64,000 nt of DNA from the NCBI RefSeq assembly GCF_019739195.1, contig NZ_JAHHDS010000003.1:1116001-1180000 (forward strand), given 5' to 3'. Source of the stretch: Microcella sp. Lineage in GTDB: Bacteria > Actinomycetota > Actinomycetes > Actinomycetales > Microbacteriaceae. This document shows positions 37,817 to 42,325 of this stretch, piece after piece; the stretch's first letter is position 1; each line of letters begins with the position of its first letter. The notes below the pieces were generated by a model, which saw nothing but the letters and a program-made list of their open reading frames with translations, was not told where the DNA came from and did no database searches. A program made the translations under genes and the position numbers.

Positions 37817-39427
37817 TCAACCGGCGTCGTCGCGCCGCACGATCAGCACGGTCACATCGTCGGCGGAGAAACCGCGAGCGCGGGCGCGGATCGCCTCGAT
37901 GATCTCCCACGGATCCCGCGAGAGCATCGCCAGCGCCACGAGGTTGTCGAGCGAGGCGAGCGTGCCGTCATAGAGGTCGAGCACACCGTCGCTCACGACG
38001 ATGAGGGTGTCGCCCGGGTCGAGATCGACCGTCTGCTGCGTCCACTCTGTCTCGGGGTCGACGCCCAGGGGCGGCGCGGTCGACGTGAGCCGCTGCGATG
38101 AGCCGTCGGCGCGCGACACGATCGAGAGGCCGTGGCCGGCATCCACGTAGGTCAGCGTGCCCGAATCCATGTCGAGGCGCGCGTGAAAAGCCGTGACGAA
38201 AACGCCGGCGTTGTCGAGATCGATCGAGAGCGCCGCCGAGGCCGCGTCGACCGCGCCGACCACATCGGCGAACCGGGCAGCCGACCTCAGCACTGCGCGC
38301 ACCGTCGCGGCGATGATCGACGCCGCGATGCCCTTGCCCATGGCATCGGCGAGCGTGAAAGCCGCCCCTTCGCCCACCGGGTACCAGTCATAGAAGTCGC
38401 CCCCGACGGCTCGCGCGGGAATGCAGACACCCGCGATCTGCCACCCCGGCATGCTCAGCAGCTTCTGCGGCAGCAGGCCCTGCTGCACTTCGGATGCTCG
38501 GCTGAGCTCTTGGCTCACCGTCAGCTCTTGCTGCACCCACGCAGCGAGGTCGCGCAGCATCTCAGTCTCGCGCGCCGAGAAGTGGCGCGGCTGCGAGTCG
38601 TAGACGCAGAACGCGCCGATGCGCTCGCCGCCGGGCGCGTAGAGCGGAAAGCCCGCGTAGAACCTCAGAGTGTCAGGATTCGCCTTGGCAGCGAAGCGCT
38701 CATCAGCAAGGAGGTCGGGCACCACGAGCGCCTCGTCAGACTGCACAGTGATCGTGCACATCGACTCGCTGCGGGCAATCTCCTCTGAGCCGAGACCCGT
38801 CAGCGACTTGGACCACTGACGGTCATGATCGATCATGTTCACGGCCGCCGACTCGACCCCGAACAGTTGCGCGGCGAGGCGCGTCACACGATCGAAGCGC
38901 TCTTCGGGAGGCGTGTCGAGAATGCCCATGTCGTCGAGAGCGCGTTGACGAGCCATCTCGTCGATGACTCCGGCGATCGAGATCGACGGCATCGAACGCC
39001 GAGCACGCGGGCTCGATGCGCGTCGAGCCCGCACGACCGTCCAGTGATTCGACCCCTCCACGCGGTGGTGCTCGACACTGTCGCTGAGCATCTGCATAAG
39101 AGGAAGCCCTCGCCCGCGCTCGGCCATCGACTCGGGCATGGCGCGATCGTCGAGATTCACCCGCTCGACAGAGCCGCTGTCGGTCACGGTGGCCTCGATG
39201 CGGTCCTCGAACACCACGATCGAGAGCGAGAAGGCGATGTCGCCGCCCCCGTTAGCGTGCTCGATGACGTTCGCCGCCAGCTCGACGATGGCCAGCTCGG
39301 CCGCCATGCGGTCAGCGTCGTCGAGCCCGGGTGTTTGCGCCCAGATCGTCGCGAGCAGATCTTGCACGGTGTCGACCGAGTCAGGAGGGCTGCTGAGCCG
39401 CACTGTGCGAGAGACGAGTTCAGTCAT
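37817..39427 (-). CDS. Anti-sigma kinase-GAF-PP2C (SpoIIE/RsbU) phosphatase
   Basis: A 536-residue fusion for partner switching. Domains: RsbW-like HATPase (about 5-135, 'E-L-A-A-N-V-I-E-H-A' N-box and 'G-R-G-L-P-L-M' ), GAF sensor (about 165-315), PP2C/SpoIIE phosphatase (about 335-535, 'V-G-G-D-F-Y-D-W' , 'D-A-M-G-K-G-I-A' and 'V-S-D-G-V-L-D'). It could both phosphorylate and dephosphorylate the STAS protein encoded just upstream, whose stop it overlaps by 8 bases. ATG 39427 is taken; an ATG at 39442 is also possible, neither with a ribosome site, so translation is probably coupled. No cognate sigma factor is in the window. Confidence 0.9.
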   Translation of the reverse strand: MTELVSRTVRLSSPPDSVDTVQDLLATIWAQTPGLDDADRMAAELAIVELAANVIEHANGGGDIAFSLSIVVFEDRIEATVTDSGSVERVNLDDRAMPESMAERGRGLPLMQMLSDSVEHHRVEGSNHWTVVRARRASSPRARRSMPSISIAGVIDEMARQRALDDMGILDTPPEERFDRVTRLAAQLFGVESAAVNMIDHDRQWSKSLTGLGSEEIARSESMCTITVQSDEALVVPDLLADERFAAKANPDTLRFYAGFPLYAPGGERIGAFCVYDSQPRHFSARETEMLRDLAAWVQQELTVSQELSRASEVQQGLLPQKLLSMPGWQIAGVCIPARAVGGDFYDWYPVGEGAAFTLADAMGKGIAASIIAATVRAVLRSAARFADVVGAVDAASAALSIDLDNAGVFVTAFHARLDMDSGTLTYVDAGHGLSIVSRADGSSQRLTSTAPPLGVDPETEWTQQTVDLDPGDTLIVVSDGVLDLYDGTLASLDNLVALAMLSRDPWEIIEAIRARARGFSADDVTVLIVRRDDAG

Positions 39428-39755
39428 GCGGGAAGGCGGCATCGACCGAGTCGAAGCTCGCGAGCACCGAGCCCATGTTCGTGAGCTCGAGCACGAGCTG
39501 AGCCTGCTCGGCAGGTCTCACAAGCCGCAGGTCTCCGCCTGAGGCCCGCACGGCCTTGAGGCTCGCGATGAGCGCGCCGAGACCCGACGAGTCGAGGAAG
39601 ACGACGCGGGACATGTCGACCGCGACGTTCGGGTGGTGGTCGTCGACGGCGCCCTGGATGGCCTCGCGCAGTCGCGCGGCCGTGACCATGTTGAGGCGGC
39701 CAGCGACACCCACCTCCGCTACCCCGAACGGGTGGTGCACCACTGTGATGTCCAT
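39420..39755 (-). CDS. STAS-domain anti-sigma factor antagonist
   Basis: A 111-residue single STAS domain, RsbV/SpoIIAA type, whose phosphorylation state decides whether an anti-sigma kinase is free. The phosphorylatable Ser is in 'V-V-F-L-D-S-S-G-L-G-A-L' (about 51-62). AAGGGGAG sits before the ATG at 39755. First gene of the two-gene switch with the HATPase-GAF-PP2C protein. Confidence 0.93.
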   Translation of the reverse strand: MDITVVHHPFGVAEVGVAGRLNMVTAARLREAIQGAVDDHHPNVAVDMSRVVFLDSSGLGALIASLKAVRASGGDLRLVRPAEQAQLVLELTNMGSVLASFDSVDAAFPHD

Positions 39756-39876
39756 CGCGACTCCCCTTGTCGGCTGATGCCCCCATTATCCCTGGCGCGG
39801 GCCGCGCAGCGCGGCGGCATGTGCGGCGCGCGGAGCGTCGTGCGCCGCAGGAGCGGCGGCGCACCAATGGGCTCAG

Positions 39877-40012
39877 AGCTTTTCGATCGGGTTCGACGCG
39901 AACGAGCGTCGAACAGATAAACGGGCTCGAACGGCTACAGCCGTTCGATCGGGTTCAATGCGGAGGTGCATTGAACAGATAGGCAGTCGAAAAGCTACAG
40001 CTTTTCGATCGG
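39877..40012. repeat. Tandem covarying hairpin array at the pcrA 3' end
   Basis: Two full units of about 61 bp plus a partial third. Each unit has a hairpin with 10-bp arms (TCGAAAAGCT/AGCTTTTCGA at 39987-40008; TCGAACGGCT/AGCCGTTCGA at 39927-39948) and a second with 8-bp arms and 6-base loop (TTCAATGC/GCATTGAA at 39954-39975; TTCGACGC/GCGTCGAA at 39892-39913). Arm bases differ between units but pairing is kept. Constant blocks are GATCGGGTTC and GAACAGATA. AGCTTTTCGATCGG recurs at 39877-39890. The pcrA stop codon lies in the first arm, so the array looks like repeated copies of the gene's end. Flanking 39756-39876 holds no gene. Confidence 0.9.
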
Positions 40013-42325
40013 ACTGATCTTGACGAGCAGGCGCTTGCGCCCGGCCGTGTCGAACTGCACTTCGGCGATGCTCTTGGGCCCGACGCCCGTGACGGCGCTC
40101 ACACTGCCGTCGCCGAAGTCGACGTGGCGGATGCGGTCGCCGACCGCGAGCGTGAGGTCGCCGTTGTCGCGCACGGTCGCCGTGACGCGGTTCGCCCACT
40201 CGGTCTTGGGCTTGCCCGCCGGCAGCGAGGTTCCGTAGCTGAACCGGTCACGACCCGCACCGATGCTGCGGGTGGTTGAGCGCGTGCCCATGCCGGGCGA
40301 GTCGCGCCAGTCGATGAGCTCGGTCGGAATCTCTTGCAGGTATCGGCTCGGGCTCGAGACGGTCGTGTCGCCGAAGGTCGACCGCGTCATCGCCAGGCTC
40401 AGGTGCAGCTTCTTGCGCGCGCGCGTGATGCCCACGTAGAAGAGCCGCCGCTCTTCGGCGGGGCCACCCGGCTCAGCAGCGCTCATCTGGTGCGGCAGCA
40501 GGTTCTCTTCGACCCCGGTGATGAAGACAGCGTCGTACTCGAGCCCCTTCGCGGTGTGCAGCGTCATGAGCGAGACCGTGCCGCTCGAGTCGTCGAGGTC
40601 GTCGGCCGCGGCGACGAGCGCCACCTCGGTGAGAAAGTCGATCAGTCGACCCTCGGGGTTGTTCTTCTGAAACTCGCGAGTGACTGCCACGAGCTCTTCG
40701 ACGTTCTCGGCGCGCGCCTCGTCTTGCGGGTCGCGGCTGCCGCGCAAGAGCTCGAGATACTTCGTGCGCTCGATGATCGTCGTGAGGGCATCCGGCACCG
40801 GCATCGTCTCGATCTTCTCTGAGACCTCGTCGAGCAGGCCTGCGAGATCGAGAATCGCGCCCGTCACCTTGGGCCCGAGGCCCAGGGCGGCGGCGTCGCG
40901 CAGCGCGTCGTGCATCGTGCCGCCGAGCTCGTCGGCATGGTTGGCGAGCGCCGTCTCGGTCGCGGGCCCGATGCCGCGCTTCGGGGTGTTCAGGATGCGC
41001 CGCATCGCGAGGCCGTCGGCCGGGTTCGCGACGGCGATGAGATACGCCATCATGTCTTTGATCTCGGCCCGCTCGTAGAACTTCGTGCCGCCGAGCACTC
41101 GGTACGGAATGGCAGAGCGGATGAAGATCTCTTCGAGCGCTCGCGTCTGAGCGTTGGTTCGGTAGAACACCGCGATCTGGCTGTAGGGGGTTCCGGCCTC
41201 GTGCAGGGTCTGAATCTCATCGGCGACGAACTGAGCTTCATCGTGCTGGCTGTACCCGGTGAAGCCGACGATCTTGTCGCCCGCGCCGACGGCGGTGAAG
41301 AGGTTCTTCGCGATGCGGTCGAAGTTGTTCGCGATGACCGCGTTGGCGGCATCGAGAATCGTCTGCGTCGAGCGGTAATTCTGCTCGAGCAGCACGACCT
41401 CGGCGCCACTGAAGTCGCGTTCGAACTCGACGATGTTGCGAATGTCGGCACCCCGGAAGGCGTAGATCGACTGGTCGGAATCGCCCACGACCGTGAGGCT
41501 GGCCGCGGATATGCCGCCGTCGGGTTCCAGCTCGACGCGCGTATCGGCCGGTACGTGCTGCGGCTCGACCGGGCGGGTGAGCTCGCGGATGAGCGCGTAC
41601 TGCGCGTGGTTCGTGTCTTGGTACTCGTCGATGAGAATGTGACGGAACCTGCGCTGGTAGAGCGCCGCGACTTTCGGGAACGCCCGGAAGAGGTAGACCG
41701 TCTGCGCGATGAGGTCATCGAAGTCGAACGCGTTCGCCCGGCGCAGCTCGGCGCTGTAGCGGCGGAACAGCTCGAGGAACATGACCTCGGTCGGGTCGTT
41801 CGGGTTGAGCTGGCGGCTGTAGCCCTCGGCATCGATGAGCTCGTTCTTGAGCCGCGAGATCTTGCCCGCGACCCCGCTCACCGTGAAGCCCAAGGTGTCG
41901 GCCTGCATGTCTTTCACGAGGCGCTTGATGAGCGCGCGCGAGTCGGCCGAGTCGTAGATCGTGAAGGCCGCGCCGAACCCGAACTGCTCGGCCTCGCGGC
42001 GCAGAATGCGCACGCAGGCCGAGTGGAACGTCGAGATCCACATGCCCTGGGCTGCTTCGCGGCCGACGAGCAGTTCGACGCGTTCGCGCATCTCGGCCGC
42101 CGCCTTGTTGGTGAAGGTGATGGCGAGAATCTGGCTCGGCCAGAGCTCGCGATCGCGAATGAGCCGAGCGACGCGCCGCGTCAGCACGGCGGTCTTGCCC
42201 GACCCCGCGCCCGCGACGATGAGCAGCGCCTTCGAGCGGCTGAGCACGGCCGTGCGCTGCTGCGGGTTCAGCCCGTCGAGCAGCGGATCAGCATCGGCGA
42301 GAGAGGCGCTGGCAGGGGTGCTCAT
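39995..42325 (-). CDS. pcrA: UvrD/PcrA-type ATP-dependent DNA helicase
   Basis: A 776-residue superfamily 1A 3'-5' helicase for excision repair and for clearing replication forks. Motifs: Q-motif 'L-N-P-Q-Q-R-T-A-V', Walker A 'A-G-A-G-S-G-K-T', II 'L-I-D-E-Y-Q-D-T-N', III 'V-G-D-S-D-Q-S-I-Y-A-F-R-G-A', and V/VI 'T-L-H-T-A-K-G-L-E-Y' with 'Y-V-G-I-T-R-A'. The C-terminus has the PcrA tail ending 'K-I-S-P-I-E-K-L'. Its last codons are part of a hairpin array that continues past the stop (39877-40012). Next to sucC through the STAS/phosphatase pair, as uvrD1 is near sucC in mycobacteria. Confidence 0.96.
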   Translation of the reverse strand: MSTPASASLADADPLLDGLNPQQRTAVLSRSKALLIVAGAGSGKTAVLTRRVARLIRDRELWPSQILAITFTNKAAAEMRERVELLVGREAAQGMWISTFHSACVRILRREAEQFGFGAAFTIYDSADSRALIKRLVKDMQADTLGFTVSGVAGKISRLKNELIDAEGYSRQLNPNDPTEVMFLELFRRYSAELRRANAFDFDDLIAQTVYLFRAFPKVAALYQRRFRHILIDEYQDTNHAQYALIRELTRPVEPQHVPADTRVELEPDGGISAASLTVVGDSDQSIYAFRGADIRNIVEFERDFSGAEVVLLEQNYRSTQTILDAANAVIANNFDRIAKNLFTAVGAGDKIVGFTGYSQHDEAQFVADEIQTLHEAGTPYSQIAVFYRTNAQTRALEEIFIRSAIPYRVLGGTKFYERAEIKDMMAYLIAVANPADGLAMRRILNTPKRGIGPATETALANHADELGGTMHDALRDAAALGLGPKVTGAILDLAGLLDEVSEKIETMPVPDALTTIIERTKYLELLRGSRDPQDEARAENVEELVAVTREFQKNNPEGRLIDFLTEVALVAAADDLDDSSGTVSLMTLHTAKGLEYDAVFITGVEENLLPHQMSAAEPGGPAEERRLFYVGITRARKKLHLSLAMTRSTFGDTTVSSPSRYLQEIPTELIDWRDSPGMGTRSTTRSIGAGRDRFSYGTSLPAGKPKTEWANRVTATVRDNGDLTLAVGDRIRHVDFGDGSVSAVTGVGPKSIAEVQFDTAGRKRLLVKISPIEKL

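Follow-up and report, generated by a model that had tools for sequence, protein, structure and literature searches.

The last codons of pcrA in a Microcella genome recur downstream of the gene, interleaved with hairpins. What kind of element repeats the end of a helicase gene, and what keeps its hairpin arms matched while they change? We address these questions in a window of 64,000 nucleotides, which is the whole stretch of DNA analyzed here, and in related genomes. The genome of the window is labelled G000, and the other genomes of the genus are labelled G0xx.

A tandem array at the pcrA 3′ end

The PcrA protein has the Pfam domains UvrD-helicase, UvrD_C, and PcrA_UvrD_tudor, the last of which matches residues 728-775 of 776. 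Its gene closes with ATC AGT CCG ATC GAA AAG CTG TAG. The last six codons, stop included, form an 18-base segment that we call T, and each unit of the array consists of T, a hairpin A, and a hairpin B (Table 1). The whole array spans 39873-40012 and comprises two units followed by a lone T3. The inverted arm of A1 occupies the eight bases directly after T1 (39987-39994). Hairpin A1 spans the pcrA stop codon, while B1, A2, and B2 start 18, 46, and 80 nt after it, respectively; the gaps between A and B are 10 nt in the first unit and 12 nt in the second. We infer that T3 is the displaced old end of pcrA. An end reading CTCTGAGC followed by a GC-rich palindrome is also seen, by eye, in G025 and G018.

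Table 1. Features of the pcrA 3′ region, in window coordinates
Feature	Position	Strand	Description	Basis
SpoIIE/GAF/HATPase gene	37817..39442	-	Follows the STAS gene	Pfam
STAS-domain gene	39420..39755	-	Co-directional with pcrA, downstream	Pfam STAS
GC-rich palindrome	39842..39862	-	GCGCCGCCGCTCCTGCGGCGC; dispersed set, outside the unit	
T3	39873-39890	-	Third copy, reads PIEKL-stop (TGA), without inverted arm	
Hairpin B2	39891..39914	-	GTTCGACGC TCGTTC GCGTCGAAC	
Hairpin A2	39927..39948	-	TCGAACGGC TGTA GCCGTTCGA	
T2	39935..39952	-	Repeat of the pcrA end, second in the array; translates as PIERL-stop	
Hairpin B1	39953..39976	-	9-bp arms around 6 nt (GTTCAATGC ACCTCC GCATTGAAC)	
Hairpin A1	39987..40008	-	T1 coding arm, stop codon at loop, inverted arm in 3′ UTR	
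T1	39995-40012	-	Last six pcrA codons, CCG ATC GAA AAG CTG TAG (CCGATCGAAAAGCTGTAG)	
pcrA	39995..42325	-	UvrD/Rep-family helicase, 776 aa	ORF + Pfam

This layout had been described in a sequence-only reading of the locus, and it is borne out: T2 lies 60 bases after T1, T3 lies 62 bases further, and T3 has one arm only. That reading also took the loops to be fixed, which holds for hairpin A, whose loop is the same in both units, but not for hairpin B, whose loop matches at three of six positions. Its in-frame T2 is likewise a feature of the 60-base spacing in G000 and not a general one. Unit spacings are 60 and 62 in G000, 61 in both G021 and G009, 65 in G001, 67 in G018, and 66 in G010. Read-through of the pcrA stop into T2 was considered and rejected, since only two of these seven spacings (60 and 66) are in frame and the T2 of G010 has no stop.

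Tandem Repeats Finder listed 72 rows for the window, and the array scored highest among them (score 160, period 62, 2.2 copies). We wrote a 35-base pattern for hairpin B from the array's own two B copies; the window has two matches to it, whereas 100 shuffles have none. The predicted folding energy of the 151-base stretch is -60.6 kcal/mol (z = -6.41), and none of 200 shuffles folded as low. Perfect hairpins (stem of at least 9, loop of 3-8) number 61 in 464 kb of this genome (the window plus 20 stretches of 20 kb), where the array is the only place with three of them within 160 bases. A search of 39700-40200 against Rfam gave two matches, both below the gathering score of the family concerned (14.6 versus 35.8 bits and 13.9 versus 80 bits).

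A Microcella-specific element

We examined 26 genomes of the genus and could read the pcrA locus in 24; neither G008 nor G012 yielded a pcrA match, and both are left out of the counts. The unit is found at the pcrA 3′ end in nine of the 24 loci, 10 units in all: two in G000 and one each in G021, G009, G001, G018, G010, G006, G013, and G014. The key prediction of the sequence-only reading, units in other genomes with pair-preserving changes, is thereby borne out, and the outcome that would have refuted it was looked for and did not arise. In G005 only hairpin A is present at the end of pcrA, and this locus was counted as lacking the unit; the remaining 14 loci have none.

A covariance model, built from the same ten units that it recovers, found these ten across the 26 genomes with E values no higher than 5.5e-15; the best match after them was at 3.1e-4. 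With up to 150 candidates scored per genome, the model located no unit away from pcrA in the 26 genomes. Weak matches at E 1 occurred in 25 of them, and the seven that we fetched (E 3e-4 to 0.54) all lie inside stop-free stretches of 114-166 codons.

Outside the genus, we find pcrA ends without the unit. In BLAST searches of 149 relatives, strong matches were confined to the same genus, and the six matched relatives from outside it (E 2e-4 or weaker, 22-37 bases) had no unit by eye. Nor was a unit visible by eye at the pcrA loci of the best 20 of 63 other same-family genomes matched, 14 of which encode a PcrA ending in PIEKL. Allowing up to three mismatches, the B pattern matched 13 of 299 family genomes. 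Three of these are Microcella, at pcrA; the other ten belong to other genera and have three mismatches each, all within long open frames. Nine of the ten apparently belong to a single conserved gene, and CCGATCGA is absent from the vicinity of all ten. In the genomes searched, the array is a real, Microcella-specific 3′-end element of pcrA.

We also noted a palindrome-like stretch, CCCCCAGTTCTGGG, at the expected place of T2 downstream of pcrA in G006, G013, and G014.

Structure and covariation of the hairpins

The RNAalifold consensus of the units recovers hairpins A and B unprompted. Double changes are seen in 8 of 19 pairs (5 of 10 in A and 3 of 9 in B), counts that are inflated by the relatedness of the sequences. 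Of all paired cells, 94.7% hold a pair, compared with 86.9% in column shuffles (0 of 500 as high) and 22.7-43.0% when the alignment is slid. The measure of further pair types is weak, with 42 of 500 shuffles as high. Eight of the 10 units, and likewise the single hairpin of G005, fold at z -3.5 or lower, while for the units of G010 and G013 folding is on a par with shuffles.

The covarying arm of hairpin A is coding, and its partner lies across the stop codon. A Glu-to-Val change is answered by a U-A pair in G006 and a U-G pair in G014, and leaves a mismatch in G013; synonymous changes in G009, G010, and G014 are also answered across the stop codon. An alternative pairing of the inverted arm with T2 rather than T1 was rejected (81.5% of cells paired versus 95.0%, and one double-change pair versus five).

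The sequence-only reading held that pair-preserving change implies a structure kept in RNA or single-stranded DNA. The pairs are indeed preserved, but the implication is too strong. Selection on RNA should favor G-U over A-C cells, yet the two are about equally frequent on the sense strand (6 and 5). Furthermore, we see double changes from A-U to C-G, from C-G to G-C, and from A-U to U-A, for which a route through G-U is impossible. Pair-preserving change is therefore no proof of selection on RNA.

Both observations would fit a neutral origin, in which template switching made the inverted copy of T and re-matched the arms, slippage made the further T copies, and selection on RNA played no part. 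The adjacent columns 10 and 11, which both changed together with their partners in the second unit of G000 only, might point the same way. Template switching that makes stems and re-matches their arms is documented (Monttinen and Loytynoja 2022, PMC8794818): as described there, reverse-complement copying can make a perfect stem and change both arms at once. The cases in that account are RNA genes, whereas in the pcrA array the copied arm comes from the last codons of a protein-coding gene, and a direct repeat lies further on. As an account of the whole array, we regard neutral origin as possible though unlikely, because template switching alone does not conserve the sequence of hairpin B.

Conservation of hairpin B

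In two close pairs of genomes, G018/G010 and G006/G014, the stem and loop of hairpin B are identical at 43 of 44 positions, while the spacer is identical at 9 of 19 (Fisher P = 7e-6, with columns taken as independent, segments picked after the alignment had been seen, and G006/G013 left out). In the third close pair, G006/G013, hairpin B is no better kept than the spacer (16 of 22 versus 5 of 10), as a neutral origin would allow; the G013 unit is a decayed one. Between clades, identity is 34% in the spacer, 71% in the B loop, and 80% in the B stem, compared with 61% at fourfold sites of pcrA.

In two of the three close pairs, then, hairpin B and its loop have changed far less than the spacer. 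On balance, we take this as a sign of function in hairpin B, with the proviso that the segments were chosen post hoc. Its conservation is stronger evidence for a kept function than the covariation is.

A possible transcript-end element

What might this function be? The reading that we favor, tentatively and at a rough probability of 45%, is that the array is a two-hairpin transcript-end element of pcrA that does without a U tract and whose units turn over in concert. It probably represents a known type of element in unusual form. Hairpins A and B would fold in the pcrA transcript after the last ribosome leaves, and the resulting two-hairpin block might halt RNA polymerase, or exonucleases working from the 3′ end, ahead of the STAS and SpoIIE genes. 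A similar STAS start follows pcrA in 22 of the 24 loci by pattern and in G017 by eye; the stretch available for G018 ends earlier.

Hairpins of this sort are common at gene ends here. Among 346 genes, from a crude calling made for this analysis, we found 28 gene-end hairpin rows within 80 nt of a stop, three of them pcrA's own, and only 3 of the 28 have at least five T in the next ten bases. Terminator-like sites with a U tract numbered zero on both strands of 39600-40200. The array also shows the spacing of the hairpin-cluster rule (Gupta and Pal 2021, PMC8355165), by which two or more hairpins lie no further than 80 bases from the stop and are separated by fewer than 15 bases. Given this spacing and the abundance of gene-end hairpins without a U tract, a transcript-end block of this type is the most ordinary reading of the array.

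The resemblance to hairpin-cluster terminators extends to the position near the stop and to a U tract being unneeded, as that paper describes them. The pcrA element differs in that its first hairpin holds the stop and the last codons, in that it is a tandem unit, and in that it is a putative terminator found only at one gene in one genus. A hairpin that spans the stop, as A1 does, is not known to be covered by the published rule (PMC8355165). Stop-spanning hairpins occur in four cases among the 346 genes, of which pcrA is one. The other perfect ones are in L107 near 7830 (minus strand), L114 near 13077 (plus strand), and L115 near 16265 (plus strand); the three-base loop of the L114 hairpin is exactly TGA.

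Several points count against a transcript-end role. The conserved loop is atypical of a plain terminator. Hairpin A would be hidden under any ribosome that sits at the stop, and 14 of the 24 loci do without the unit. In six of these 14, an ATAATGG motif lies within 15 nt after the stop, so that no terminator would be needed there. Furthermore, a rule for Escherichia coli, as cited in PMC8355165, places hairpins at least 30 nt from the stop.

The ATAATGG motif raises a further alternative, that the array is a duplex-DNA operator acting on a downstream STAS promoter. Inverted repeats do lie upstream of the motif at some loci, and the conserved B sequence in two close pairs would suit a protein-binding site. 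An operator is nevertheless improbable: hairpin B and the motif are not a constant distance apart (about 20 bases in G021, about 100 for B2 of G000), the arms covary instead of staying fixed, and there is no sigma-70-type promoter match there. We also considered whether T might be an element at a fixed place upstream of the STAS promoter and rejected this, since the spacing from T to ATAATGG varies among loci.

Turnover of the array

We mapped unit presence on a pcrA DNA tree built without the last 30 bases. It takes six changes, and well-supported branches make at least four of these unavoidable. Two sister pairs, G009/G007 and G001/G004, each differ in unit presence with full support; G000, G020, and G005 also differ, with less certain branching. 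Presence is not clustered on the tree, with 91 of 500 label shuffles needing as few changes.

Where the unit is absent, the single T aligns with T2 of the sister species. The flank plainly continues in G001/G004, where the T2 of G001 and the pcrA end of G004 have CTCTAGG and the flank in common, and is more diverged in G009/G007. Displaced T copies mostly still read as a PcrA end. Across six lineages, T2 shows 3 protein-changing differences versus about 23 expected from fourfold divergence under a rough vertical model with a rough rate (5 versus about 23 when G010 replaces G018). Thus, either T2 has been refreshed from T1 as the array expanded and contracted, or the unit has been inserted recently, several times. 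Given that displaced T copies still read as the PcrA end and that sister species differ, the array turns over at the T repeats.

For the transcript-end element, we infer transcript ending or protection as its role and slippage between T copies as its route of turnover. Direct T repeats flank each unit, with palindromes between them, and slippage or recombination there could add, remove, or swap units. Such swaps could replace the last codons of PcrA, and template switching at the palindromes would re-match both arms in one step. Two of the options raised in the sequence-only reading, a transcript-end element and template switching, probably each hold part of the truth.

The PcrA of G005 ends in PIERL, with exactly the hairpin arms of A2, the second unit of G000, which suggests that units and the coding end of pcrA might be exchanged. 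Exchange of the pcrA end between the two clades was considered and set aside: over codons 8-30 counted back from the end, pairs of unit-bearing loci have a third-position identity of 0.692, mixed pairs 0.660, and unit-free pairs 0.666, and there is no clear footprint. Variants common to G018 and G010, and to G006 and G014, point to vertical descent within those pairs.

The same patterns bear on the possibility that the unit is a site-specific mobile cassette of ~61-67 bp. Such a cassette would target the pcrA 3′ end, restore the helicase frame with its own T, displace the old end into a growing array, and be moved in trans by a putative recombinase. Its patchy presence, the T2 copies that still read as coding, and the lack of a clear flank footprint would all be expected. 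So would the finding, plain in G001/G004 and less so in G009/G007, of a direct repeat of the target at both ends together with a one-copy empty site, where the displaced T joins the species' own flank. Deletion between repeats, however, gives the same pattern. The 9-6-9 geometry of hairpin B resembles that of recombinase sites.

We nevertheless consider a mobile cassette quite unlikely. There is no second site in the 26 genomes, and the variants common within G018/G010 and G006/G014 speak for descent rather than movement. Three exact unit patterns gave no match in viral contigs, and one exact unit pattern gave two matches in genome contigs, on contigs with the lengths of G009:C2 and G001:C3. 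The 18-base T pattern matched one viral contig, inside a long open frame. No phage or plasmid match was convincing: phages gave one (a minor tail gene, E 0.5), and plasmids gave one in a Halosolutus gene (E 0.1) and one to a palindrome of 22 bp carried by a plasmid from Microbacterium (E 0.4). This last palindrome (L134 3001-3022) equals the 22-bp palindrome of A1 and lies between MerR-type and recombinase genes; we take the match as probably chance, since only half the length of a palindrome is independent sequence. Tyrosine recombinases (PF00589) number only two in G000 and in G010, the same as in five unit-free genomes, and no Y1 transposase was found in the 26 genomes.

Attachment sites of integrative elements can likewise duplicate a gene 3′ end and restore the end of the reading frame. 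In contrast to these, the pcrA insert measures only ~61-67 bp, and neither a linked tyrosine recombinase nor a larger relative was found. REP and BIME elements are short palindromes in gene 3′ regions, sometimes arrayed. They occur in many dispersed copies, unlike the pcrA unit, which has none among the candidates scored in the 26 genomes (up to 150 per genome). A search for the RAYT gene (Y1_Tnp, PF01797) was negative in all 26 genomes at E 1e-5; the control was positive in 5 of 14 genomes.

An adjacent dispersed palindrome

The GC-rich palindrome beyond T3 belongs to a separate set. We found GCGCCGCCGCTCCTGCGGCGC at seven places in the genome (the window and L089-L095) with up to two mismatches allowed; one copy has one mismatch. 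Three copies (in L089, in L094, and the one with a mismatch, in L091) follow a tRNA gene called by ARAGORN at a distance of no more than about 20 nt, and the flanking bases lengthen the stem differently in several copies. This palindrome may represent a dispersed transcript-end or REP-like family.

Implications

The pcrA array puts numbers on a general difficulty: pair-preserving change alone cannot separate selection on RNA from template switching. It also ties together the 3′ end of a coding sequence, a hairpin at the stop codon, and direct repeats. Turnover of the array could thus rewrite the C-terminus of PcrA.
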